From the NCBI GenBank assembly GCA_903872155.1, contig CAIQJP010000159.1, forward strand, positions 1 to 33,059: a stretch of 33,059 nucleotides of DNA, read 5' to 3'. Source of the DNA: an uncultured Actinomycetes bacterium. Lineage in GTDB: Bacteria; Actinomycetota; Acidimicrobiia; Acidimicrobiales; Ilumatobacteraceae. The notes beneath the pieces were generated by a model, which ran no database searches, was not told the DNA's origin, and worked only from the letters and a program-made list of their open reading frames with translations. Both the position numbers and the translations under genes were made by a program. This document shows, one piece after another, positions 2,567 to 33,059 of the stretch. Numbering within the stretch: the stretch's first letter is position 1; the number at the start of each line of letters is the position of its first letter.

Positions 2567-4054
2567 ATGTCCACTGAATTCATCATGCCCAAGCTCGGAC
2601 TCACCATGGAAGAGGGCACCATTCTCGAGTGGCTCGTTGAAGACGGTACCGAGATCACTCAAGGTATGGCCGTGCTTCGCATTGAGACTGACAAAGTTGA
2701 AAGTGATGTCGAGTCACCAGGCGCTGGACGATTTCATCGAGTCGGCAATCAAGGCGACACCTACCCATGTGGCGCGCTAATTGGTTACTTGTTGGCTGAT
2801 GGCGAAGAGCCACCCGTCGCACAAGTCATTGCTCCTGTGGCTGCAGCGACCCCGGCAGCATCAGCACCAGTTGCCTCTTCTGCACCAGTTGCAGCAGTTG
2901 CATCAAGCCTCGCCGCGCCCCGTCGTGAAGGTCGTTTGTTTGCCTCGCCGAATGCTCGTCGTGTTGCCAAAGAGCTCGGCATTGATATCGAGACCGTTGT
3001 CGGCAGTGGCCCCGAAGGTCGCATCACTTCAGAAGACGTCGAAGAAGCGCATAAGAATCCAGGCGCACCGCGTGTAACTAATTCATCTATCTCAGCAATC
3101 GCCGTTCCACCGATCTTGTCGGCGAATGGCAATGTGCTCGCGACTGCTGCAGCCCGTCAACTCGCCGAGCTGTTGGGCGTTGATCTTGCTCAGGTCCCTT
3201 ATGACGCCACCGACGGTCGTGTCACCAAAGATGGTGTTGCTGCGTTCGTGCGAGCGCAACTTGCCGGTTCTCGCTCACCCAGCACACCAGCAACCCCCGC
3301 GCCATCATCTACTTCAACTTCAACATCAACAACGGTCCTCGCTCCTGCCAGTCAGACGCCGACGTCGATCAAGAAGATGTCCGGCATGCGTGGCACGATC
3401 GCCAAGCGCATGCAGTCGTCGTTACAAGACATGGCGCAACTCACCCTGCACATGGATGCCGACCTTGACGCCATCGTCGAAGATCGCGAGTCACGCAAGA
3501 ATTCTGGAAACAATGATTCAAGCAACAGCCTTCCGGGCTTTACCGATTACGTCATCGCCGCTGCTGCACGAGCATTAAAACTGCACCCGATTGTCAACTC
3601 GCAAGTCACTGCCGAAGGTATTGCCCTTCTCCCCGAGATTCACGTGAGCATGGCCGTCGCCCTTCCCGAGGGACTCATTGTTCCGGTCATCAAGAACACC
3701 ACGTCCCTTGACTTGGCTTCACTTGCATCTGAAACCAAGCGTTTGTCTGGCGCAGCCCGCGAAGGCAAGTTGGGACTTGGCGAACTTGAAGGCGGAACTT
3801 TCTCGGTGAGCACCCTTGGTATGTTCGGCGTCGACGGCTTCACCCCGGTCATCAACCCGCCCAATACCGCAATTCTTGGTGTCGGTCGTTTACGAGATGA
3901 TGTCGTGGTCAGCAAGAAGGGCAAAGTGTCAACCGTCAAGCGCATGACCCTCAGCCTCACCTGGGATCACCGAGTCTTCGACGGTGCCCCCGCTGCCGAG
4001 TTCTGCAAGTCGATCGTTGATCTTCTTGCCGATCCCTCAGCGTTGAACAAGTAG
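2567..4054 (+). CDS. acoC: Dihydrolipoamide acyltransferase (E2) with one lipoyl and two E3-binding-like domains
   Basis: E2 core of the dehydrogenase complex: it carries the acyl group on a swinging lipoyl arm and transfers it to CoA. Domains along its 495 residues are: a lipoyl domain at about 1-80 with the lipoylation lysine K43 in ETDKVE; an Ala/Pro/Val linker; a peripheral-subunit-binding domain at about 124-163 (SPNARRVAKELGID...GPEGRIT); a second, weaker copy at about 190-230 (ATAAARQLAELLGVD...TDGRVTKDGV); a Ser/Thr/Pro linker at 233-265; and the catalytic acyltransferase domain from about 270 to the end. The catalytic DHRVFDG has H468 and D472. Two binding domains is more than the usual one. 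The gene follows acoX with no spacing. Its last 18 bases overlap the convergent HNH gene. The E2 family call is certain; the acetoin assignment is inferred. Confidence 0.92.
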   Translation: MSTEFIMPKLGLTMEEGTILEWLVEDGTEITQGMAVLRIETDKVESDVESPGAGRFHRVGNQGDTYPCGALIGYLLADGEEPPVAQVIAPVAAATPAASAPVASSAPVAAVASSLAAPRREGRLFASPNARRVAKELGIDIETVVGSGPEGRITSEDVEEAHKNPGAPRVTNSSISAIAVPPILSANGNVLATAAARQLAELLGVDLAQVPYDATDGRVTKDGVAAFVRAQLAGSRSPSTPATPAPSSTSTSTSTTVLAPASQTPTSIKKMSGMRGTIAKRMQSSLQDMAQLTLHMDADLDAIVEDRESRKNSGNNDSSNSLPGFTDYVIAAAARALKLHPIVNSQVTAEGIALLPEIHVSMAVALPEGLIVPVIKNTTSLDLASLASETKRLSGAAREGKLGLGELEGGTFSVSTLGMFGVDGFTPVINPPNTAILGVGRLRDDVVVSKKGKVSTVKRMTLSLTWDHRVFDGAPAAEFCKSIVDLLADPSALNK

Positions 4055-5254
4055 TACTCGCGTCTCCGTATTGAGTTTCAGTTTCCACCCTCCTTCGTGT
4101 GCCGCATGATGGTGTCGTGAGCAGAGTGGAACCAAGTTGTTGAAGTTGGTTTCTCCCCCGTTCTCCCAGTATTCAATGTGGTGCGGTTCGCAATGACTGA
4201 ACTTCACCGAACATCCGTCAATCGCACAGGTCTCATGTACTGCGGCCAATGCCCGGCGTTGATAGGCCGTGGCTAATCGTTTCGATTTTCCAACATCGAG
4301 TGGAACACTCTTGCCGTCAAGAACAAGTGGAATGATCTCGGCTTCACAAGCCAAACGGCGAATCGTCTCAACTGAGAGCTCTGAACCATTCAAGATGCGG
4401 CATGTACGAGCATCACCCAAGCCTGTCTCACTCACTGCGCCAGCCAACAACTCGTAATCAATATGCACCACGATCTCAGCACGAGCCGGACGGTCACACA
4501 AAGAACTACTCAATGCACCGCCCAAGGAATCACTGTCTAGGCGACTTTGCAACAAGGCCACAAGAGCCAATGCTCGGCGATGATCATTGGGCTCGATTGA
4601 AGCATCACATTCGACTGGGACTTCTCGATCACCCGAATGAAACATTGCTTCTACTCCGGCATCAAGTAATGCCGAGACTATTGATCCTCGTTCGGGGTCA
4701 AACTTGCCGAACAAATTGGTCATACCGTCGGCATCGACCCAGTGGCGAAGAAAGGTCTGACGACGTTGTTTCTCGAAACGACCAACACCACCGTCATCGG
4801 TCAGCGTTTGCGCGGTTCGGCGCACGAATTTCGTGAACTCATCGGCAGTCATAGCTTGGGCCGTCACCAAAAGCTCTGGTGCTCGTTCAATCAATTTGCC
4901 AGATTGCTCACCCAAAATTTTGAGTCCGCTTGACAGTGCGTCAACATGCGCAGACGTGACGTTGCCCGCGGCCAAGGCCTCACCGAACGCTGGAACCGAC
5001 CCAATGGTTTCGGTACGGGCCATCACTTTGCGAACATCAGAAGTTGATAATCCGCTCTCGCGGATGAGTTCAACTTCGGGCATTACAGAATTGAGTTCGG
5101 ACATCGTCGCAACCAAACGTGATTGCAACGAATCAAGCCATGATCGCAGGCAGCGAATATCGTTCAACCCTTCACGAAGTTCAGCTACCGAACACTTTGA
5201 GGTGTCACGAGAAGTCAGAGCGTTTACTCGCTCAATGACTACGGAACTATTCAT
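4037..5254 (-). CDS. DUF222 / HNH endonuclease-like protein (13E12 repeat family)
   Basis: A 405-residue protein of the actinobacterial DUF222-HNH type. The first ~300 residues are the helical DUF222 region. The C-terminus is an HNH nuclease module, with C343 and C348 followed by EPHHIEYW (H358-H359), an Asn-rich N-F-N-N segment, and LCSRHHHAAHEGGW (C378, H381-H383), which completes the Cys/His metal site and the catalytic His. I chose the ATG at 5254 because GGGAGG sits 8 bases upstream; a longer reading frame starting at 5314 lacks such support. The last 18 bases overlap the E2 gene tail to tail. These proteins are often multicopy in actinobacteria and their role is poorly known; a DNA-processing function is plausible because the nuclease residues are intact. 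Nothing around it suggests a mobile element. Confidence 0.88.
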   Translation of the reverse strand: MNSSVVIERVNALTSRDTSKCSVAELREGLNDIRCLRSWLDSLQSRLVATMSELNSVMPEVELIRESGLSTSDVRKVMARTETIGSVPAFGEALAAGNVTSAHVDALSSGLKILGEQSGKLIERAPELLVTAQAMTADEFTKFVRRTAQTLTDDGGVGRFEKQRRQTFLRHWVDADGMTNLFGKFDPERGSIVSALLDAGVEAMFHSGDREVPVECDASIEPNDHRRALALVALLQSRLDSDSLGGALSSSLCDRPARAEIVVHIDYELLAGAVSETGLGDARTCRILNGSELSVETIRRLACEAEIIPLVLDGKSVPLDVGKSKRLATAYQRRALAAVHETCAIDGCSVKFSHCEPHHIEYWENGGETNFNNLVPLCSRHHHAAHEGGWKLKLNTETRVLLVQR

Positions 5255-24468: not shown

Positions 24469-25581
24469 ATGGCGCACTATCGTCTAGCCGTGGGCCACAT
24501 TGAGAGCAGCGGGACCGACCGCATCAATCTCGTCATCATTTTCGGAGGCCAGTCGGCTGAACACGATGTGAGTTGTTCGACCGCCGCCCACGTCATGAAA
24601 GCCGTCAATCCCGATCGATATACCGTGACCGCTCTCGGCATCGACCGATCGGGCCAGTGGCACCTTGCCGAATCAGCGATGGCGGCACTTGACCAAGGCC
24701 CCGACGCCATTCCTGCTCGACTTGAGGCCTCTGGACGCTCGGTGTCGTCAGCACTTGCCCTCACTGCGGCTTCGGCAGGCGGATCGACCGTGGTGATGCC
24801 ACTGCTCCACGGACCATTAGGCGAAGACGGCACCGTTCAAGGACTTCTTGAACTACTCGATGTCCCGTATGTCGGAGCTGGAGTGTTGGCCTCTGCAGTT
24901 GGCATGGATAAAGCCATGTCAAAAGATGTACTTGCACGACACGGAATCGCTCAGCCTCGTTATGTGGCTGTGCGTGACAGCGATGTTTCAACTTCGCGAC
25001 TTCAACAAATTGCCACCGAACTTCAGTACCCGATCTTTGTGAAACCAGCGAACATGGGTTCGTCCGTTGGCGTGAGTAAAGCCCATGATTTTGACGAACT
25101 TGTTGCGGCGACCGATATTGCAATGACGTACGACGAGTGGATTGTTTTTGAAGAAGCAATTGTTGGACGCGAAATTGAAGTGGCAGTTCTGGGCAGCCAT
25201 CATCCGCAAGCAAGTGTTGCTGGCGAGATTGTTCCTGGACACGAGTTCTACGACTACGAAGACAAGTACCTCAGTGATGGTGCTCAACTCATGATTCCTG
25301 CGCCGCTCACCGCAGGGCAAAGTGACACCGTCCGTCAACTAGCCATTGAGGTTTTTCAAGCTCTTCGCGGTGAAGGCTTAGCCCGAGTTGATTTCTTCTT
25401 TGAAGAAAATGGCCGTGGATTTTTGTGCAACGAAGTGAACACCATGCCCGGATTTACACCGATCTCGATGTACCCGAAACTATGGATGGCAACGGGCGTC
25501 AGTTACTCTGACCTCATCGATCGCCTTGTTGAACTCGCTCGCGAGCGTCACGCACGACGCCGTCGCAATACCGGTCACTGA
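24469..25581 (+). CDS. ddl: D-alanine--D-alanine ligase
   Basis: An ATP-grasp ligase of 370 residues that makes the D-Ala-D-Ala dipeptide for peptidoglycan. Motifs in order: FGGQSAEHDVS (N-terminal substrate loop, Glu and Ser), HGPLGEDGTVQG, VGAGVLASAVGMDKAMSK, FVKPANMGSSVGVSKA (ATP-grasp Lys and glycine loop), YDYEDKYLSDGAQLMIPAPL (omega loop), and ARVDFFFEENGRGFLCNEVNTMPGFTPISMYPKLW with the Mg-binding Asp, Glu and Asn. DKY in the omega loop is typical of D-Ala-D-Ala enzymes rather than VanA-like D-Ala-D-Lac ligases. The N-terminus runs about 18 residues before the first strand. A GTG at 24490 is an alternative start, 6 bases after a TATCGT box. It faces dapA's operon and converges with tetR after 2 bp. 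Confidence 0.94.
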   Translation: MAHYRLAVGHIESSGTDRINLVIIFGGQSAEHDVSCSTAAHVMKAVNPDRYTVTALGIDRSGQWHLAESAMAALDQGPDAIPARLEASGRSVSSALALTAASAGGSTVVMPLLHGPLGEDGTVQGLLELLDVPYVGAGVLASAVGMDKAMSKDVLARHGIAQPRYVAVRDSDVSTSRLQQIATELQYPIFVKPANMGSSVGVSKAHDFDELVAATDIAMTYDEWIVFEEAIVGREIEVAVLGSHHPQASVAGEIVPGHEFYDYEDKYLSDGAQLMIPAPLTAGQSDTVRQLAIEVFQALRGEGLARVDFFFEENGRGFLCNEVNTMPGFTPISMYPKLWMATGVSYSDLIDRLVELARERHARRRRNTGH

Positions 25582-25583
25582 AT

Positions 25584-26210
25584 TTACGATTTTTCGGGCG
25601 TCAACGCAGCCCGCAAAAAACGAGTCATCTCGTGACGCAGATTTCGTAGCCCCGCGATGTCTTGTTGCCAGCCCACGACGCGCAAGGCCTCCGGCTCAGT
25701 CGCAATACCCGTGACAGTTGCGTACACCATTGCCACGATGATCGCTGGATTACCTCGACGCAGGCGACCGAGTTCCATTTCTGATTGCATCCAGTTCACC
25801 GCACGATCAACAAGCGGAGTTAAGTGCTCGGTCATGTACCCCGTTGCACCGCTTGGCAATCGACTCAACTCACGCAACAAGCCAAGCAACGCTGGACGAC
25901 GAACTGCCGACCGAAATACGGCATGGACGACGGCATCCAAACGATCAAGCGGATCATCGGGGGCGGCCCGCATCGCTGCTTCGACAACCACGGTGAGTTC
26001 GGTAGCCATATTGGCCAAAACCGCCTGCACTAGGTCGTCTTTCGAGGCAAACCAATACAACAAGGTCTGCTTGGCAACCCCCACTTCGGTCGCAATCTGA
26101 TCAAGGCTGACCGCGTCAAAACCCCTGGTCCCGAACAGAATCGTGGCACTTTCCAAAATGCGCTCGCGGGTATCTCCGCGTCGATTTGGACTCACTGGGC
26201 GACTGGCCAT
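25584..26210 (-). CDS. TetR-family transcriptional regulator
   Basis: A 208-residue repressor-like protein. The N-terminal helix-turn-helix (about 17-62) reads RERILESATILFGTRGFDAVSLDQIATEVGVAKQTLLYWFASKDDLVQAVL, a textbook TetR pattern with LYWF-x-SKD-x-L. The rest is an all-helical ligand-binding and dimer domain with no recognised ligand signature. The ATG at 26210 is preceded by AGGA 8 bases upstream. It is divergent from a four-gene operon, and the 89-bp gap holds a perfect 22-bp palindrome, so it most likely represses that operon and possibly itself. A fatty acyl-CoA or alcohol ligand would fit the neighbours but is inference. Confidence 0.93.
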   Translation of the reverse strand: MASRPVSPNRRGDTRERILESATILFGTRGFDAVSLDQIATEVGVAKQTLLYWFASKDDLVQAVLANMATELTVVVEAAMRAAPDDPLDRLDAVVHAVFRSAVRRPALLGLLRELSRLPSGATGYMTEHLTPLVDRAVNWMQSEMELGRLRRGNPAIIVAMVYATVTGIATEPEALRVVGWQQDIAGLRNLRHEMTRFLRAALTPEKS

Positions 26211-26259: not shown

Positions 26260-26281
26260 TTCTCTACCAATTGGTAGAGAA
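26260..26281. promoter_or_regulatory. Perfect 22-bp palindrome, probable TetR operator
   Basis: The half-site TTCTCTACCAA and its exact complement meet without a spacer at 26270/26271. It lies between the divergent tetR and acyl-CoA reductase genes and covers the -35 region of the operon promoter. Length, symmetry and position are typical of a TetR-dimer operator. Bound repressor would block RNA polymerase at this promoter. Confidence 0.85.
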
Positions 26282-26287
26282 CCGTGT

Positions 26288-26293
26288 TATAAC
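26288..26293 (+). promoter_or_regulatory. -10 box of the acyl-CoA reductase operon
   Basis: TATAAC, close to the TATAAT consensus, ends 6 bases before the GTG start at 26300. Transcription would begin at or next to the start codon, giving a leaderless mRNA, which fits the lack of a Shine-Dalgarno. The -35 position falls inside the palindrome and matches consensus poorly. Confidence 0.6.
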
Positions 26294-26299
26294 TGATTC

Positions 26300-28684
26300 G
26301 TGATTTCCGAAAATCTCCATGGCAAACGCATCGCAGTCACCGGCGCAACCGGTTTTGTGGGCACCGCCCTCGTCGAACGTCTGCTCTTTAGCGTCCCCGA
26401 TTGCGAAGTCGTTTTACTCGTTCGCAACGGTCGTCGCACTGCAGCAGCCGAACGCGTGCGCCGTGAGATTTTTAAGAACGATGCCTTTGATCGCTTACGT
26501 GCATCGCTTGGCCCCGCCTTTGATGCAACCATGCAACGTCGCGTCAGCGTTGTCGCTGGTGACGTCGGAACTGATGGACTTGGTTTGTCAGATGAAGACG
26601 CCAAAACATTTGCTTCATGCGACACCATCATCCACTCAGCAGCGAGTGTTTCATTTGACTCACCGCTCGACAGTGCCGTCGAAGTCAACTTGCTCGGACC
26701 AATGCGCATTGCTGAATTAGTCAACCGCATCGGACCTCGCGCCAACGGAACCTTTCCACACCTCGTTGCGGTCAGCACGTGTTATGTCGCAGGTAACCGC
26801 CGCGGTACTGCACCCGAACAACTCGTGAGTGCTGGACCATTTGATATCGGTCTGAACTGGAAAACTGAAGTCACTGCGGCACGTCGTTTGCGCGGTGACG
26901 CCGAAGCAGCTAGTCGCATGCCATCGGAACTACAAAAGTTCCGTTCTGAAGCTCGTTCCGAACTAGGCGCTGCTGGTGCACCGGCACTTGCTGAAAAGAC
27001 CGAACAAAATCGTGAACGTTGGGTCAAGGACCAATTAGTTGAAGCAGGTCGTTCACGGGCCGCAAGTGTTGGCTGGCCCGATGCCTATGCATTCACTAAG
27101 GCATTAGGCGAACAAGCACTGCATGAAACAAAGGGTGCTGTTCCCGTCAGCATTGTTCGCCCTTCAATTATTGAATCTGCGTTAGCGGAACCGTCACCTG
27201 GCTGGATTCGTGGCTTCCGCATGGCCGAACCAGTCATCATTTCGTATGCCCGCGGTTTGCTTGATCAATTCCCCGGAGTACCCGAAGGAACCGTTGATGT
27301 TATTCCTGTCGACATTGTTGTGGCGGCGATCATTGCGGTCGCAGCCCTTGGCCCAGAAGACGCTCCACACATCACGCAAGTAGCAAGTGGTTCTACCAAC
27401 CCGCTCAAGTATCGAACACTCGTTGACAATGTTCGCGATTGGTTCACTGAACACCCCATCTACGACTCTGAAGGTCAACCGATTGTTGTCGCCGACTGGA
27501 AGTTCCCGGGTCGTGGAAAAGTTGAAAAGCAACTCACTCGTGCCAAGAGCATCATCACGAAGAGTGAAAAGGTTTTGCAGGCACTCCCCTTGCGAGGCAA
27601 TCAAGCAACATGGTCAGCCAAACTCGAAGACAAACGAGGCGATCTTGAACGAGCTCTTGAATACGTCGAGCTCTACGGTCTGTATACCGAATGTGAAGCG
27701 ATTTATTCGGTTGACAATCTTTTAGCAATCAACGATCGACTTGATGCCCACGATCGATCAGCCTTTTGTCTTGATCCGCGCGTCGTTGATTGGCCCACGT
27801 ACATCTCGACTATTCACCTTCCGTCAATTGTCTTACACAGCCGAGTCAAAACCACACCAGGCAAGAGCACTCTTGACCGCAGTGATCGTCTGCGCAAACA
27901 GATTCTTGATCCGAAACGTCATGTCGCCGCCTTCGACCTCGAAAACACCCTGATCTCCAGCAATGTTGTTGAAAGCTATTCGTGGCTAGCAACCCGCCGC
28001 CTCAATTCGCCAGAGCGCGTGCGTTATGTCTTGCGCACGATGAAGGAAGCACCGAACTTGCTATCAATGGATCGCAAAGATCGATCGGACTTCTTGCGCT
28101 ACTTCTATCGCCGTTACGAGGACGCTCCCGTTGAACAGATTGAAGAAGACTCACGCGAGTTGCTCGCTCAACTCATTATGACCAAGAGTTTCCCCGCTGG
28201 CCTTCGTCGTGTTCGTGAGCACCGCGCCCTTGGTCACCGCACGATCTTGATTACAGGCGCCATGAGTTTCGCCGTCGAAGGTCTGCGGCCACTTTTTGAT
28301 GAGATCGTTGCTGCCGAAATGACGATTCGCCCTGATGGAACCTACTCAGGTGAGCTCGCCAAGGTTCCGCCTACAGGCGAAACTCGCGCTCAAGTGTTGG
28401 CCGAATATTGCGCCGCAGAAGGACTTCGTCTTGAAGAGTCAATTGCGTACGCCGACTCAAGTAGCGACCTTCCGATGCTTGAAGCAGTCGGATTCCCGGT
28501 TGCCGTGAACCCAGAAACACGACTTGCTGCTATTGCTCGCAAACGCGGTTGGCTCGTTGAAAATTGGGAGAAGTCACCAGGCGGACCACGCCCACGTCTT
28601 CCGCTCGGACCCATGATGTCTGAGCGTGAACAGAAACGTTTCTCGGTTCGTAATGGACGTAACTCATATAGGTCACTCTCATGA
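26300..28684 (+). CDS. Fatty acyl-CoA reductase fused to a HAD-IB phosphatase-like domain
   Basis: A 794-residue fusion. Residues 1-380 are an extended-SDR fatty acyl-CoA reductase domain (NAD_binding_4/Male-sterility type): TGATGFVG at 14-21, HSAASVSFD, and the catalytic Y263-x3-K267 (YAFTK). Residues about 450-515 resemble the FAR C-terminal domain (IYSVDNLLAINDRLD...PRVVDWPTYISTIHLP). From about 540 a HAD-IB domain of SerB/CicA type follows: D546-L-E548-N-T, TILITGAM (motif II), and ADSSSDLPML with D719 and D723. Motif I reads DxE where DxD is usual, so its phosphatase activity is uncertain. It would reduce an acyl-CoA or acyl-carrier thioester to aldehyde or alcohol; the HAD substrate is unknown. 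The GTG at 26300 starts an apparently leaderless transcript; the last 4 bases overlap the next gene (ATGA). Confidence 0.88.
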   Translation: MISENLHGKRIAVTGATGFVGTALVERLLFSVPDCEVVLLVRNGRRTAAAERVRREIFKNDAFDRLRASLGPAFDATMQRRVSVVAGDVGTDGLGLSDEDAKTFASCDTIIHSAASVSFDSPLDSAVEVNLLGPMRIAELVNRIGPRANGTFPHLVAVSTCYVAGNRRGTAPEQLVSAGPFDIGLNWKTEVTAARRLRGDAEAASRMPSELQKFRSEARSELGAAGAPALAEKTEQNRERWVKDQLVEAGRSRAASVGWPDAYAFTKALGEQALHETKGAVPVSIVRPSIIESALAEPSPGWIRGFRMAEPVIISYARGLLDQFPGVPEGTVDVIPVDIVVAAIIAVAALGPEDAPHITQVASGSTNPLKYRTLVDNVRDWFTEHPIYDSEGQPIVVADWKFPGRGKVEKQLTRAKSIITKSEKVLQALPLRGNQATWSAKLEDKRGDLERALEYVELYGLYTECEAIYSVDNLLAINDRLDAHDRSAFCLDPRVVDWPTYISTIHLPSIVLHSRVKTTPGKSTLDRSDRLRKQILDPKRHVAAFDLENTLISSNVVESYSWLATRRLNSPERVRYVLRTMKEAPNLLSMDRKDRSDFLRYFYRRYEDAPVEQIEEDSRELLAQLIMTKSFPAGLRRVREHRALGHRTILITGAMSFAVEGLRPLFDEIVAAEMTIRPDGTYSGELAKVPPTGETRAQVLAEYCAAEGLRLEESIAYADSSSDLPMLEAVGFPVAVNPETRLAAIARKRGWLVENWEKSPGGPRPRLPLGPMMSEREQKRFSVRNGRNSYRSLS

Positions 28685-29904
28685 AAGCACTCAAGATCTC
28701 CCGCAAGACCGCCAAGTTTGCCGTCGCTCGTTTGATGAGTCCGGTGAGCACAATTGGTGCCGCAAAGTTTGGACCATTGTCATTGGTTAACGAATCTGCG
28801 CCGACGATGCCAAACGCCGAAGGATGGCACCGCATTCAGCCGCGACTCACCGGTATTTGTGGAAGTGACCTCTCATTAGTTGAAGGTCATGCGTCGACAT
28901 ATTTCGATGACTGGGTGTCTTTCCCATTCGTTCCGGGTCACGAAGTTGTGGCCGATTGCGATGATGGTCGTCGCGTTGTTCTTGAACCAGTTCTTGGTCA
29001 TGCGTGTCGCGGTTTGCCGCTACCTTTCGAAGGTGCAGCACCCGGAGATGGTGACGACTACGCGCACCTTGTTGGTGGACATCTTGAGCCCGGTATTCAA
29101 ACTGGATTTTGCACGTCCACGGGCGGCGGTTGGGCGACCGAACTCATCGCCCACGACAGCCAACTTCATGAAGTGCCCGACAGCATGTCCGATGAGCAAG
29201 CGGTGCTCGTTGAACCTGCTGCCGGTGGAATTCACGCGGCACTCGCAACGTGGCCCGCAGTGCAAGCAGCGATTCAACGTGGCGAAACTCCAATTGTTGC
29301 CGTGCTTGGCGCCGGGTCTATGGGACTATGCGCTATCGCTGGCCTACGTCGTTACGTTCCGCAAGTACGCATCATTGTTGGTGCTCGCTACCCCCATCAA
29401 CAAGCATTCGCTCGCTCACTCGGAGCCGATGTCGTTGTGCCCGCCGCCGAATTGGCACGGGCAGTACGACGCGAATCGGGTGGACATATTGTTGGCGACT
29501 ATTTGTCGGGCGGATGTCATGCAACCATTGACGCAGTTGGCTCATCAGACAGCATCATGGATTGCCTGAAGTTCACTCGTCCTCGTGGTCGCGTTGTTTT
29601 GCTTGGTATGCCTGCAGTTGTTTCACTTGATCTCACCGGATTGTGGCACCGCGAGACCGCCCTGATTGGCGCATACACCTACGGAACCGAATCAATGCCT
29701 GATGGCACCAAGCGCCACACTTTCGATCTCGCGATTGAAACTGCTGCCGATTGCCAACTCAACCGTCTTGTCTCTGCGACATATCGCTTAGACGATTATC
29801 AAAATGCCCTTGCCCATGCCGCCGGAGCCGGTCGTCGTGGTGCAGTCAAGATCGTGTTCGACTTACGCGCGTCTGACGCTCGTAACAAGAAGGAGACAAA
29901 CTAA
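28681..29904 (+). CDS. Zinc-type medium-chain dehydrogenase (alcohol dehydrogenase-like)
   Basis: A 407-residue MDR protein. Catalytic zinc ligands are C60 (TGICGSDL), H87-E88 (VPGHEVV) and probably E178 (LVEPAAGG). The Rossmann motif VLGAGSMGLCAIAG is at about 208-221. The usual four-cysteine structural zinc lobe after the GHE motif is missing: that region (about 103-150) has isolated Cys residues and a Gly/Pro/Asp-rich loop instead. The family oxidises or reduces secondary or primary alcohols with NAD(P). The first ~45 residues are longer than usual and basic. It overlaps the reductase gene by 4 bases and the LarA-like gene by 1, so all are translated together. It may handle the alcohol or aldehyde made by its neighbour, or a polyol head group; the sequence does not decide. 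Confidence 0.87.
   Translation: MKALKISRKTAKFAVARLMSPVSTIGAAKFGPLSLVNESAPTMPNAEGWHRIQPRLTGICGSDLSLVEGHASTYFDDWVSFPFVPGHEVVADCDDGRRVVLEPVLGHACRGLPLPFEGAAPGDGDDYAHLVGGHLEPGIQTGFCTSTGGGWATELIAHDSQLHEVPDSMSDEQAVLVEPAAGGIHAALATWPAVQAAIQRGETPIVAVLGAGSMGLCAIAGLRRYVPQVRIIVGARYPHQQAFARSLGADVVVPAAELARAVRRESGGHIVGDYLSGGCHATIDAVGSSDSIMDCLKFTRPRGRVVLLGMPAVVSLDLTGLWHRETALIGAYTYGTESMPDGTKRHTFDLAIETAADCQLNRLVSATYRLDDYQNALAHAAGAGRRGAVKIVFDLRASDARNKKETN
29891..29895 (+). promoter_or_regulatory. Ribosome binding site of the LarA-like gene
   Basis: AGGAG lies 8 bases before the ATG at 29904, inside the end of the dehydrogenase gene. It is stronger than the sites of its operon neighbours and fixes the start at the TAATG overlap. 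Confidence 0.7.
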
Positions 29905-31490
29905 TGCCCCGTCCCGGATTTGTCCTTGAAGTCGATAAGTCGACTCCCCCCATTCTTTTTTGGCGTGGCGAAAACTTCTCATTAGAGAAGCTGCCTGCTG
30001 GTCGTAGTCGCGTGATCTACGCGCCAGAACCGTTGCCCGCGATCGAAGACGTTGATGGTGCGATTCGCCATGCATTACTGAACCCCATCGAGCAAGATCC
30101 GTTGCCCGAGCAATTGTTCCCAGGCATGAAGCTCACCATTGCGTTTGACGACGTCAGTTTGCCTCTTCCGAAGATGCAACGCCCCGACATTCGTCAAAGG
30201 GTCATTGAGGCCGTTCTTGACATGGCTGCCGAAGCCGGCGTCGATGATGTGCACATCATTTCGGCGCTTGCACTACATCGCCGCATGACCGAAGCCGAGT
30301 TGCGCCACGCCGTCGGCGACCGCGTATATGACGCCTTTGCACCTCGCGGAACCCTCTATCAACATGACGCCGAAGATCCCGAGAACTTGTCGTACCTTGG
30401 TACGACTCCTCACGGCGAAGATGTCGAGATCAATAAGCGAGCCGCCGAAAGCGACTTGCTTGTATACGTCAACATCAACCTCGTTGCCATGGACGGTGGC
30501 TGGAAGAGCACGGCTACTGGCTTGTCGTCGTACAAGTCGTTACGTCACCACCACAATCCCGAGACCATGATTCATTCCCGCAGTTTCATGGATCAACATC
30601 GCAGTGAATTGCACAAGAGCAACTGGCGCATGGGCAAGGTTCTTCTTGACAGTGGCGTCAAGGTTTTCCAGATTGAGACAACACTCAATACCGACACGTT
30701 CCCATCACCGTTTGGTTTCTTGGCCAAGCGCGAATGGGAATGGAAGCCATCAGATCGCATGACTTTCTTGGCCTCAACGAAAGCATTGAATCGCACGCCA
30801 ACACGCTTGGCTCGCAAGATCTTTCATTCAATTGAAGCCCCGCACCAGATGACGAGCGTGCAGGCCGGCGATGTTGAAGCAGTTCACCGCATCACCACCG
30901 AGCACGTGTACAAACAACAACTCGTTGAAGTGAAGGGTCAGACCGACATTTTGACGTTGGGTATCCCGTACATCAGCCCGTACAACGTGCACTCAATCTT
31001 GAACCCCATCTTGGTGATGTGCATGGGCCTTGGTTACTACTTCAACATGTACAAGGGAATGCCATTGGTGCGTGAAGGTGGTGTCATCATCATGACGCAC
31101 CCCACCCAACCCGATTTCCACCCAGTTCATCATCCGTCGTACATCGACTTCTTCGAACAAGTTCTTGCTGATACCACTGATCCCAAAGTGATGTCGCAGA
31201 AGTGGGAAAAACAGTACGCCGAAGACGAGTGGTACAAGCACCTCTACCGCACCACCTACGCCTATCACGGGGTGCACCCCTTCTACATGTGGTACTGGGG
31301 CAGCCACGCGTTGCAGCATTGCAGTCGCATCATCATTGTCGGGGGCGATCCAAAGACTGTGCGTCGCCTCGGATTTGTTCCGGCTTCAACGATGGACGAC
31401 GCCTTAGAAATCGCCAGCGATGTCGTTGGTCGTGCACCCACCATTACTCACCTTCATGCGCCGCCTTTGATGGTGGCCGACGTTTCGTGA
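29904..31490 (+). CDS. LarA-like protein (lactate racemase / DUF2088 superfamily)
   Basis: A 528-residue member of the nickel-pincer-nucleotide lactate racemase superfamily. FDDVSLPLP at 81-89 matches the DD-x-(T/S)-x-P motif. LALHRRMTEAEL puts H125 at the position of the first catalytic His. H154 and YLGTTPHGEDVEINKRAAESDLLVYVN follow as in the family. MDGGWKSTATGLSSY contains K201 in the GG-x-K position that carries the pincer cofactor, and H215-H217 lie at the metal-ligand His spacing. The second catalytic His expected about ten residues before K201 is absent (the segment reads NINLVAMD). The C-terminal ~200 residues have several aromatic- and His-rich stretches (YMWYWGSHALQHC) and are longer than plain LarA. 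The superfamily acts on 2-hydroxyacids; the substrate here is unknown. No LarB, LarC or LarE homologue is in the window. Confidence 0.8.
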   Translation: MPRPGFVLEVDKSTPPILFWRGENFSLEKLPAGRSRVIYAPEPLPAIEDVDGAIRHALLNPIEQDPLPEQLFPGMKLTIAFDDVSLPLPKMQRPDIRQRVIEAVLDMAAEAGVDDVHIISALALHRRMTEAELRHAVGDRVYDAFAPRGTLYQHDAEDPENLSYLGTTPHGEDVEINKRAAESDLLVYVNINLVAMDGGWKSTATGLSSYKSLRHHHNPETMIHSRSFMDQHRSELHKSNWRMGKVLLDSGVKVFQIETTLNTDTFPSPFGFLAKREWEWKPSDRMTFLASTKALNRTPTRLARKIFHSIEAPHQMTSVQAGDVEAVHRITTEHVYKQQLVEVKGQTDILTLGIPYISPYNVHSILNPILVMCMGLGYYFNMYKGMPLVREGGVIIMTHPTQPDFHPVHHPSYIDFFEQVLADTTDPKVMSQKWEKQYAEDEWYKHLYRTTYAYHGVHPFYMWYWGSHALQHCSRIIIVGGDPKTVRRLGFVPASTMDDALEIASDVVGRAPTITHLHAPPLMVADVS

Positions 31491-31503
31491 TTCGGAATTT
31501 GTA

Positions 31504-32526
31504 ATGGCTCGCGACGACGCACCCTGGAAACCAAGCAACCTTGCTAAAGCTGCGCGCATTGGCGAGTTAGTTGAACGCGTTACCCACCCCATCGCAAAAC
31601 GCACGTACCGCAAGGGCTTTCCGTACTTACCTCCGACAATTCCGCTCGGCGTTGAAGTGCCCGAAGACGAGCCCACACTCGGCGCCGACTACGACACTGA
31701 TTGGGCACGTCGTTCGCCTGCCAAATTCGTACGCAAAGGTCTCGTGAATGGACCCATTCGGCTGACTATTCAAGGATTAGCAAGCCCGAAGGTTTACGGC
31801 GTTGATCGCTTGCATGACCTCGCACAGCTCAAAGATCCGCCGCCGTTGATCTTTACACCGAATCATCATTCACATCTTGATACTGCAGTCATGGCGGTCG
31901 CTGTCCCCGAACCGTGGCGTTCAAAACTGGTTGTTGCGGCAGCTGCTGACTATTTCTTTGACAAGCGCTGGAAAGCAACAATGGCGGCATTGGCACTCAA
32001 TGCAATTCCGATTGATCGCGAAGTCACTGGGCGTAAATCTTCAGACATGATCAAAGAACTCATTGAAGATGGCTGGAGTTTGATGATCTATCCCGAAGGC
32101 GGTCGCTCGCCCGATGGTTGGGGTCAAGATTTCAAGGGCGGTGCTGCGTATTTATCAGGCCGCACCGGAGCCGCCGTCGTACCTGTTTTCATTGACGGCA
32201 CTGGCGCACTTTTTGGCAAAGGTATGAAGCGTCCAAAATTCGGAACAACCAAAGTTGTTTTCGGTGCTCCGTTGAGAGCTCTTGACGACGAAAACACGCG
32301 TCGCTTCTCGGCCCGCATCGAAGCCGCCGTGACCGAACTCGGCGATGAATCATTGACCGACTTTTGGACTGCCCGTCAACGTTCGGCCCGCAATGAAAGC
32401 ACCAAGTTAACTGGACCCGAATACACCGGCTGGCGACGTCAGTGGGCGTTGTCGGAACGGCGTGAAATGGGAACCGCTGGACTGCGTCGCCGTCAAAAGC
32501 GCCGCTGGCCCGACATCGGAAACTAG
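31504..32526 (+). CDS. PlsC-type lysophospholipid acyltransferase
   Basis: A 340-residue LPLAT-family acyltransferase. Motif I is H121-H-S-H-L-D126 (TPNHHSHLDTA, H-x4-D); motif III is YPEGGRSPDG (E198, R201; usually EGTRS), and IPIDRE precedes it. VVPVFIDGTGALFGKG corresponds to the last motif. A hydrophobic AALALNAIPI segment lies between. It transfers an acyl chain from acyl-CoA or acyl-ACP to a lysolipid or other hydroxyl acceptor at the membrane. The first ~95 residues are a charged extension before the core. The gene starts 13 bp after the LarA-like gene and ends the operon, abutting the convergent LysM gene. Its presence is the main argument that the operon makes or remodels a lipid. 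Confidence 0.9.
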   Translation: MARDDAPWKPSNLAKAARIGELVERVTHPIAKRTYRKGFPYLPPTIPLGVEVPEDEPTLGADYDTDWARRSPAKFVRKGLVNGPIRLTIQGLASPKVYGVDRLHDLAQLKDPPPLIFTPNHHSHLDTAVMAVAVPEPWRSKLVVAAAADYFFDKRWKATMAALALNAIPIDREVTGRKSSDMIKELIEDGWSLMIYPEGGRSPDGWGQDFKGGAAYLSGRTGAAVVPVFIDGTGALFGKGMKRPKFGTTKVVFGAPLRALDDENTRRFSARIEAAVTELGDESLTDFWTARQRSARNESTKLTGPEYTGWRRQWALSERREMGTAGLRRRQKRRWPDIGN

Positions 32527-33059
32527 TTACGGTTTTGGTGTTTTGGTTTGCGCCGGGATATTGATTTCATCACCCGGCAAAATAACAACTGATGCGTCAA
32601 CCCAACCATTGGCTGCCATCAGCGCTGACGCTTCAACGCCCCACTTGTCGGCGATACGCGACAAACAGCAGTCGCCTTCAACAACGGTGTACTTACCTTG
32701 ACCCGGATCTGGACCAGGCATCGTTGTCTCGGTCGGAATCGGCAAGCCTGGCAAAGTTGTTGTCTGCACAGCCGATGGCGGAATCAAGATATTGGTTCCA
32801 ATAGCCAACGGGTGCAACACACCTTCTGGCCAGTTGTTGTAAGCCGCCAACTCATCGGGAGCGACACCAAACTTTCCAGCGATTGCATACACCGAGTCGT
32901 TAGAAACAATTGTGTAACTGATCGCTGGAGGAAGTGTGTTCGCTGGATCAACTGTTGTGACGACCGAGGGTGGCGTGGTGGCATAGTTCGTCGAAGTAAG
33001 TGGACGCAATGTCGTGACCGACGAGCCGGGATCACTTCCGCATGCACTCAACAGAGCAA
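32527..33059 (-). CDS. LysM-domain lipoprotein (5' partial)
   Basis: The C-terminal 176 codons of a cell-wall-associated lipoprotein. At the right edge the frame reads A-L-L-S-A-C-G, a lipobox (L-S-A-C), so the signal peptide and start lie outside the window; an internal TTG at 33051 would cut through the lipobox and is not the start. After a Ser/Thr/Pro-rich spacer come two LysM modules: YTIVSNDSVYAIAGKFGVAPDELAAYN...ILIPP and YTVVEGDCCLSRIADKWGVEASALMAANGW...INIPA. The modules are joined by a Thr/Pro linker and followed by a short basic tail. LysM binds N-acetylglucosamine in peptidoglycan, so the protein probably bridges membrane and wall. It carries no catalytic domain. It is convergent with the acyltransferase gene with no intergenic bases. 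Confidence 0.88.
   Translation of the reverse strand, partial: ALLSACGSDPGSSVTTLRPLTSTNYATTPPSVVTTVDPANTLPPAISYTIVSNDSVYAIAGKFGVAPDELAAYNNWPEGVLHPLAIGTNILIPPSAVQTTTLPGLPIPTETTMPGPDPGQGKYTVVEGDCCLSRIADKWGVEASALMAANGWVDASVVILPGDEINIPAQTKTPKP

Follow-up and report, generated by a model that had tools for sequence, protein, structure and literature searches.

A five-gene unit and its conservation

The window analysed here, i.e. the whole stretch of 33,059 nucleotides from contig CAIQJP010000159.1 of an uncultured Ilumatobacteraceae bacterium (assembly GCA_903872155.1), carries at its end a five-gene unit consisting of a minus-strand tetR gene and four plus-strand genes, which encode an acyl-CoA reductase/HAD-IB phosphatase fusion, a zinc-type medium-chain dehydrogenase/reductase (MDR), a LarA-like protein and a PlsC-type acyltransferase (Table 1). 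Families were assigned from the open reading frames and their translations by Pfam and NCBIfam profile searches. The coordinates, the three junctions between plus-strand genes (in order, overlaps of 4 bp and 1 bp, then a gap of 13 bp), the divergent regulator gene and the palindrome described in an original prediction, made from the sequence alone, were all reproduced from the reading frames and letters of the window, and the profiles matched the five proteins to TetR_N; NAD_binding_4 of the male-sterility/fatty acyl-CoA reductase type with HAD-IB; zinc MDR; Lar_N; and Acyltransferase. The gene arrangement and its conservation bear out the proposal that the four genes form a single operon.

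Table 1 Features of the five-gene unit, in window coordinates.
Feature	Coordinates	Strand	Basis
TetR-family regulator	25584..26210	-	PF00440 50.8 bits (cut-off 24); divergent from operon
Palindrome TTCTCTACCAATTGGTAGAGAA, 22 bp, likely TetR operator (putative)	26260..26281	.	Perfect symmetry
TATAAC, possible -10-like hexamer	26288..26293	+	Read by eye
Acyl-CoA reductase/HAD-IB phosphatase fusion, 794 aa, GTG start	26300..28684	+	NAD_binding_4 199.3 bits, HAD 89.9 bits
Reductase domain, residues 13-344	26336..27331	+	PF07993
HAD-IB domain, residues 543-728	27926..28483	+	PF12710; TIGR01490 101.2 (cut-off 98.3)
Zinc-type MDR, sorbitol/ketose-reductase-like	28681..29904	+	PF00107, PF08240
LarA-like protein, LarAH14/15/16, single catalytic histidine, probable nickel-pincer nucleotide enzyme	29904..31490	+	NF052592 898.5 bits (cut-off 740)
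H125 = LarA H108 (catalytic)	30276..30278	+	HMM alignment
N192 at LarA H174 position (second catalytic His lost)	30477..30479	+	HMM alignment, one-residue gap nearby
K201 = LarA K184 (covalent cofactor attachment)	30504..30506	+	HMM alignment
H217 = LarA H200 (nickel ligand)	30552..30554	+	HMM alignment
PlsC-type acyltransferase	31504..32526	+	PF01553 62.5 bits (cut-off 23)

Scanning 84,980 species, each represented by a single genome, returned at least 583 stretches encoding a relative, of which the best 80 (70–100% identity) were kept. By their record titles these belong to Acidimicrobiia, Acidimicrobiales, Ilumatobacteraceae or, often, Actinobacteria, with some apparently mislabelled (e.g. 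Bifidobacterium breve), and the carriers include Ilumatobacter nonamiensis YM16-303 and Aquihabitans sp. G128. The reductase lies upstream in 72 of these best 80 relatives, an MDR is present in 70 and PlsC in 78; in the eight relatives without a visible reductase the contig starts inside the MDR gene, within 50 bases of it, or 85 bases before LarA. The reductase, LarA and PlsC genes occur without the MDR in 9 of the 72 close relatives showing the reductase, a pattern counted in favour of the pathway proposed below; the MDR, also missing in genome G235, is thereby ruled out as a core member. Gene spacing, scored with script-chosen starts in the 80 relatives plus 20 further loci, is tight, with overlaps in 60 of 78 reductase–MDR pairs, 50 of 85 MDR–LarA pairs and 33 of 87 LarA–PlsC pairs and no LarA–PlsC gap above 200 bases in this set; LarA overlaps the MDR gene or lies within 50 bases of it in 66 of 85 loci. 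Genes in G+C-rich relatives were placed by tblastn and third-position G+C.

The association extends across 296 sampled genomes from the phylum, of which 62 encode a LarA above the NCBIfam cut-off and two more carry strong fragments. One of these 64 is the window's own genome, and loci were fetched from 62 of the other 63 (G135, with a LarA fragment, was left out); distances to neighbours in this sample run between match edges, not gene ends. The reductase lies on the same strand, at most 4 kb upstream of LarA, in 54 of 58 assessable strong loci, the contig ending first in 4 of the 62, and outside one family, f24, PlsC follows LarA in 37 of 41 strong loci, with the contig ending first in the other four. 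This association of genes is well beyond chance. The gene set proposed in the original prediction is thus found together in relatives, and some versions of it lack the MDR or PlsC. Some f24 loci (L089, L090, L092) hold extra genes between the MDR and LarA, including a MOSC gene identified by Pfam in L092; genes that we label globin-like and MarR-like on inspection of their sequences are also inserted in some loci of this family.

Pairwise distances (mirror-tree) show LarA tracking the reductase (r 0.89) and PlsC (0.88), which we treat as weak evidence because the neighbouring D-Ala-D-Ala ligase (Ddl) also correlates with the four operon genes (0.72–0.84). The ddl gene (window 24469-25581) adjoins tetR and is matched in the fetched stretch of 43 of the 80 close relatives, perhaps through shared descent. 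On the other side, a LysM-domain gene (window 32527-33051) lies on the opposite strand directly after the PlsC gene and is matched in 11 of the 80.

The LarA-like protein and its probable cofactor

Of the four operon proteins LarA shows the strongest conservation, with a median identity to the window protein of 73% among near relatives and 60% among others. Its Lar_N domain (PF09861) scores 138.3 bits (cut-off 23.3), and the protein exceeds the cut-off of NF052592, which covers groups LarAH14, LarAH15 and LarAH16 of the superfamily (Desguin et al. 2020, PMC7583248). Residues were mapped onto structurally characterised LarA by a hidden Markov model (HMM) alignment, with numbering following PMC7583248 and PMC12611868. 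In this mapping LarA D72 corresponds to D83 of the window protein, R75 to L86, H108 to H125, H174 to N192 (with a one-residue gap nearby), K184 to K201 and H200 to H217; the alignment is not confident in the C-terminal domain, where K298 of the racemase mechanism would be sought. The protein therefore shares with LarA lactate racemase (5huq, 8ezf) the Lar_N fold, the lysine that carries the nickel-pincer nucleotide (NPN), the nickel histidine and H108, but lacks H174 and R75 and is about 100 residues longer. All 95 close homologues have D83, H125, N192, K201 and H217, and position 86, equivalent to R75, is Leu in 92, Ile in two and Cys in one, and basic in none. Among four mid-distance homologues (36–40% identical), D83, H125, K201 and H217 occur in all and N192 in three, and the most distant homologue (L107), which aligns poorly, has none of the five.

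Loss of the second catalytic histidine is a feature that the protein shares with groups 14 and 15, for which the same loss is reported (PMC12611868), and it keeps the NPN residues, in contrast to group 16, which was judged not to keep them (PMC7583248). An AlphaFold2 monomer model built with 45 sequences (pLDDT 84.6, below 50 at residues 86–90 and 357–365) had as its best Foldseek match the single-histidine LarA 9q3k (TM 0.76/0.83), with lactate and malate racemases ranking lower; since the model is poor at 86–90, another residue could take the role of R75 in place of L86. The single-histidine LarAs of Streptococcus plurextorum and Blautia wexlerae (9q2u, 9q3k, 9q3j; PMC12611868) are 21–24% identical to the window protein (Foldseek), and the active-site residues His115, Asn185, Lys195, His211, Tyr307 and His401 correspond in the HMM alignment to H125, N192, K201, H217, Y360 and H458. 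The Streptococcus enzyme differs in having H306 at the position of P359 and K76 at that of L86, and the solved enzymes differ in their sugar-gene context. Two such enzymes have been solved, of which one contains the nickel-pincer cofactor, and no substrate was found for them (PMC12611868). An oomycete protein also named LarAH15, from the GntE branch, is a D-gluconate epimerase (PMC11770544), its equivalence to group 15 of the 2020 paper being unconfirmed.

On these residue patterns the LarA-like protein is probably an NPN enzyme and is unlikely to be an ordinary two-way 2-hydroxyacid racemase, since the loss of both the second catalytic histidine and R75 speaks against simple racemisation of the free acid in both directions. 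A conserved and very aromatic C-terminal stretch (YHGVHPFY..YW) may suit a chain-like substrate. Spread of the gene on plasmids was considered and set aside, as only 8 of 72,556 plasmid records matched the protein, all distantly (identity below 60%, and in each case less than 80% of the query covered).

Genes for NPN supply are present in the window's own genome, where larB and larC are adjacent (contig C87) and larE lies on a second contig (C44), all above NCBIfam cut-offs. In 5 of the 62 fetched loci (L105, positions 3121-5099, with L096, L097, L122 and L128), larB and larC lie about 1.8–2.7 kb downstream of LarA, beyond PlsC and on the same strand, with room for a further gene between PlsC and larBC. 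These loci comprise four of the five in family f22 and the single one in f66; the genes were identified by NCBIfam in L105 and by tblastn in the other four, the neighbourhood search covering larB and larC. Across the phylum sample, larC was detected in 58 of 64 genomes with a strong LarA and in 115 of 232 without one (Fisher's test, which ignores phylogeny). Both the nearby larBC genes and the co-occurrence of larC favour the window LarA as a client of these cofactor genes.

Partner enzymes and regulator

The best solved relative of the reductase is 7eoz, 'Fatty acyl-CoA reductase' (phmmer E 3.5e-59, the match reaching residue 513), and G18, Y263 and K267 of the GxxGxxG and YxxxK motifs are each kept in 80 of 80 aligned relatives. 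The protein thus shares the NAD-binding and YxxxK motifs of fatty acyl-CoA reductases (PF07993; 7eoz) and differs from them in its additional fusion to a HAD-IB phosphatase domain. D546 of this second domain and D719 and D723 of its motif IV (DxxxD) are likewise each found in 80 of 80 aligned relatives, and the second acidic position of motif I is Glu (DxE) in 70, including the form D-x-E seen in the window, and Asp (DxD) in 10. The same DxE change in motif I is carried by enolase-phosphatase. A second reductase of the same kind was not found in the window's own genome, in which three other matches cover the HAD part only.

The closest solved relatives of the MDR are the ketose reductase 1e3j and sorbitol dehydrogenases. 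Its residues C60, H87, E88 and E178, which we take to be the catalytic zinc ligand set, are present in 79 of 79 aligned relatives, and no NCBIfam equivalog reached its cut-off for this protein. PlsC keeps the HX4D (H121/D126) and PEG-x-R (PEGxR) motifs in 83 of 83 aligned relatives; its score against TIGR00530 (46.6) falls under the cut-off of 102.95, so it is not a canonical AGPAT by that model.

The TetR protein, which has no NCBIfam equivalog above cut-off, is matched in 52 of the 80 close relatives. The palindrome between its gene and the reductase gene is a likely, putative TetR operator, as originally suggested, since its core is conserved before reductase genes and occupies a single genomic site. 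The core TACCANNTGGTA precedes 53 of the 79 reductase genes with enough upstream sequence, a count in which locus L077, its reductase cut by the contig end, was scored as a miss, and it occurs nowhere else in the 1,362,752 bases of fetched loci. A TetR match accompanies the core in 51 of 53 loci and is present in 6 of the 26 loci without the core, the other 20 having neither. Allowing up to two mismatches, the 16-bp core has one occurrence in the window's own 2.8-Mb genome, so that the TetR protein probably governs this unit alone. In three families of the phylum sample (f20, f46 and f49) the TetR match instead follows PlsC on the same strand. In the window the hexamer TATAAC, read by eye, ends 6 bases ahead of the GTG start of the reductase, which would fit a transcript that has no leader and an operator that covers the -35 region; a consensus scan found no sigma-70 site.

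A candidate lipid pathway and its alternatives

We tentatively propose that the unit encodes a lipid pathway under TetR control, whose NPN enzyme would isomerise an alpha-hydroxy intermediate, either acyl or aldehyde. The proposal builds on the computed gene arrangement and its conservation, the conserved upstream site, the intact active-site motifs, the NPN-binding residues and the cofactor genes; from these we infer the substrates and the order of steps. A TetR repressor would control itself and the operon by binding the 22-bp palindrome, and the reductase domain would convert an acyl-CoA, probably a 2-hydroxy one, to the aldehyde or alcohol. The LarA-like protein would use K201 and H217 to bind the nickel-pincer nucleotide and, with H125 as single base, shift a hydride within an alpha-hydroxy carbonyl intermediate, resulting in a one-handed epimerisation or a C2/C1 shift. 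The MDR, where present, would then oxidise or reduce the resulting hydroxyl or keto group, the HAD domain would remove a phosphate and PlsC would add an acyl chain. A more specific form of this pathway, in which a single-base C2-to-C1 hydride shift on a long-chain 2-hydroxyaldehyde made by the reductase gives a ketol, which a polyol-type MDR converts to a 1,2-diol for acylation by PlsC, is very unlikely. No characterised pathway with this gene set was found in open PubMed Central (PMC) text, in agreement with the original prediction, and the same text (supplementary tables of LarA neighbours lying outside it) held nothing relevant on the operon, on long-chain diols or ether lipids in these lineages, or on LarA in lipid synthesis. 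None of the operon genes matched an ether-bond-forming family in Pfam or NCBIfam, the rest of the genome not having been searched for one.

A sister context provides a hint of the type of substrate. LarAs of family f28, about 40% identical (L100, L101, L102 and L162-L167), have no reductase nearby, and in 9 of 9 loci a class III CoA-transferase gene lies 22–355 bases upstream on the same strand (detected by tblastn in every locus and by Pfam in three), and a divergent AMP-binding gene lies farther out. Some class III CoA-transferases act on (R)-2-hydroxyacids, and the contexts of the operon and of f28 both hint at acids handled as CoA esters.

Two observations count against the assignment of the unit itself: the C-terminal 'Sterile' domain of Pfam scores 26.5 bits in the reductase, under its cut-off of 35.4, and the consensus scan found no sigma-70 promoter. 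Others weigh against the proposed pathway. The four strong loci in which the reductase was missed (G062, G084, G106 and G115) are all of family f24, and PlsC is missing from all 21 f24 loci; neither gene is thus obligatory, and PlsC is ruled out as a universal member. The CoA-transferase of the sister context is missing in three other mid-scoring loci (f38, f41). The solved single-histidine LarAs sit among sugar genes, not lipid genes (PMC12611868). In 6 of the 64 genomes with a strong LarA, larC was undetected, and the larBCE genes of the window's own genome are no proof that the window LarA is their client, because a second NPN-type isomerase is encoded there (Lar_N, NCBIfam group 22, 427 bits, cut-off 400; contig C64, L111:931-2214); the window LarA as the only client of these genes is ruled out by the same isomerase.

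The operon might instead make fatty alcohol for wax esters or another storage lipid, with the LarA-like protein catalysing a side step and PlsC feeding ordinary glycerolipids. This is a genuine rival but unlikely: the genome does encode a WS/DGAT wax-ester-synthase-type protein elsewhere (PF03007, 152.9 bits), and the lack of a second reductase of the same kind among our matches would fit, but LarA is the most conserved member and is coupled so closely to the MDR gene; to our knowledge, wax ester synthesis needs no isomerase. A catabolic or detoxifying operon, in which the MDR and reductase would oxidise an alcohol, ketol or aldehyde, LarA would set the stereochemistry and TetR would sense an acyl-CoA intermediate, also seems improbable. 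It would be consistent with an accessory, probably TetR-inducible operon that some genomes within the family and order lack, and with the MOSC, globin-like and MarR-like insertions in f24, but Pfam and NCBIfam searches of the window operon found no transporter, CoA ligase, thiolase or acyl-CoA dehydrogenase, and PlsC and HAD fit synthesis better.

Conventional two-directional racemisation or epimerisation of a 2-hydroxyacid, which the original prediction had put forward, is distinctly unlikely and finds no support in that form: the strong Lar_N match, the conserved NPN residues and the epimerase activity of the oomycete protein named LarAH15 would speak for it, but both the second catalytic histidine and the carboxylate/phosphate arginine are replaced in 95 of 95 close homologues, and LarAH14 from Frankia was inactive in seven racemase/epimerase assays (PMC7583248). 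Loss of NPN use by the LarA-like protein, which would then serve as a structural or regulatory partner, is highly improbable, since K201 and H217 are invariant among the close homologues and larBC lies near the operon in five loci, even though NCBIfam lumps groups 14 and 15 with group 16.

Single-histidine LarA homologues are a recognised puzzle, and the operon gives one such branch fixed partners and a regulator with a conserved site. These partners, i.e. an acyl-CoA reductase/phosphatase, a dehydrogenase and an acyltransferase, point to CoA-linked or lipid alpha-hydroxy substrates and so provide a concrete substrate clue for an orphan class. If the proposed lipid pathway is correct, NPN chemistry would extend past small hydroxyacids into lipid metabolism, and the C2-to-C1 shift, if true, would make the formation of a lipid backbone depend on nickel and give the single-histidine LarA enzymes their first reaction.

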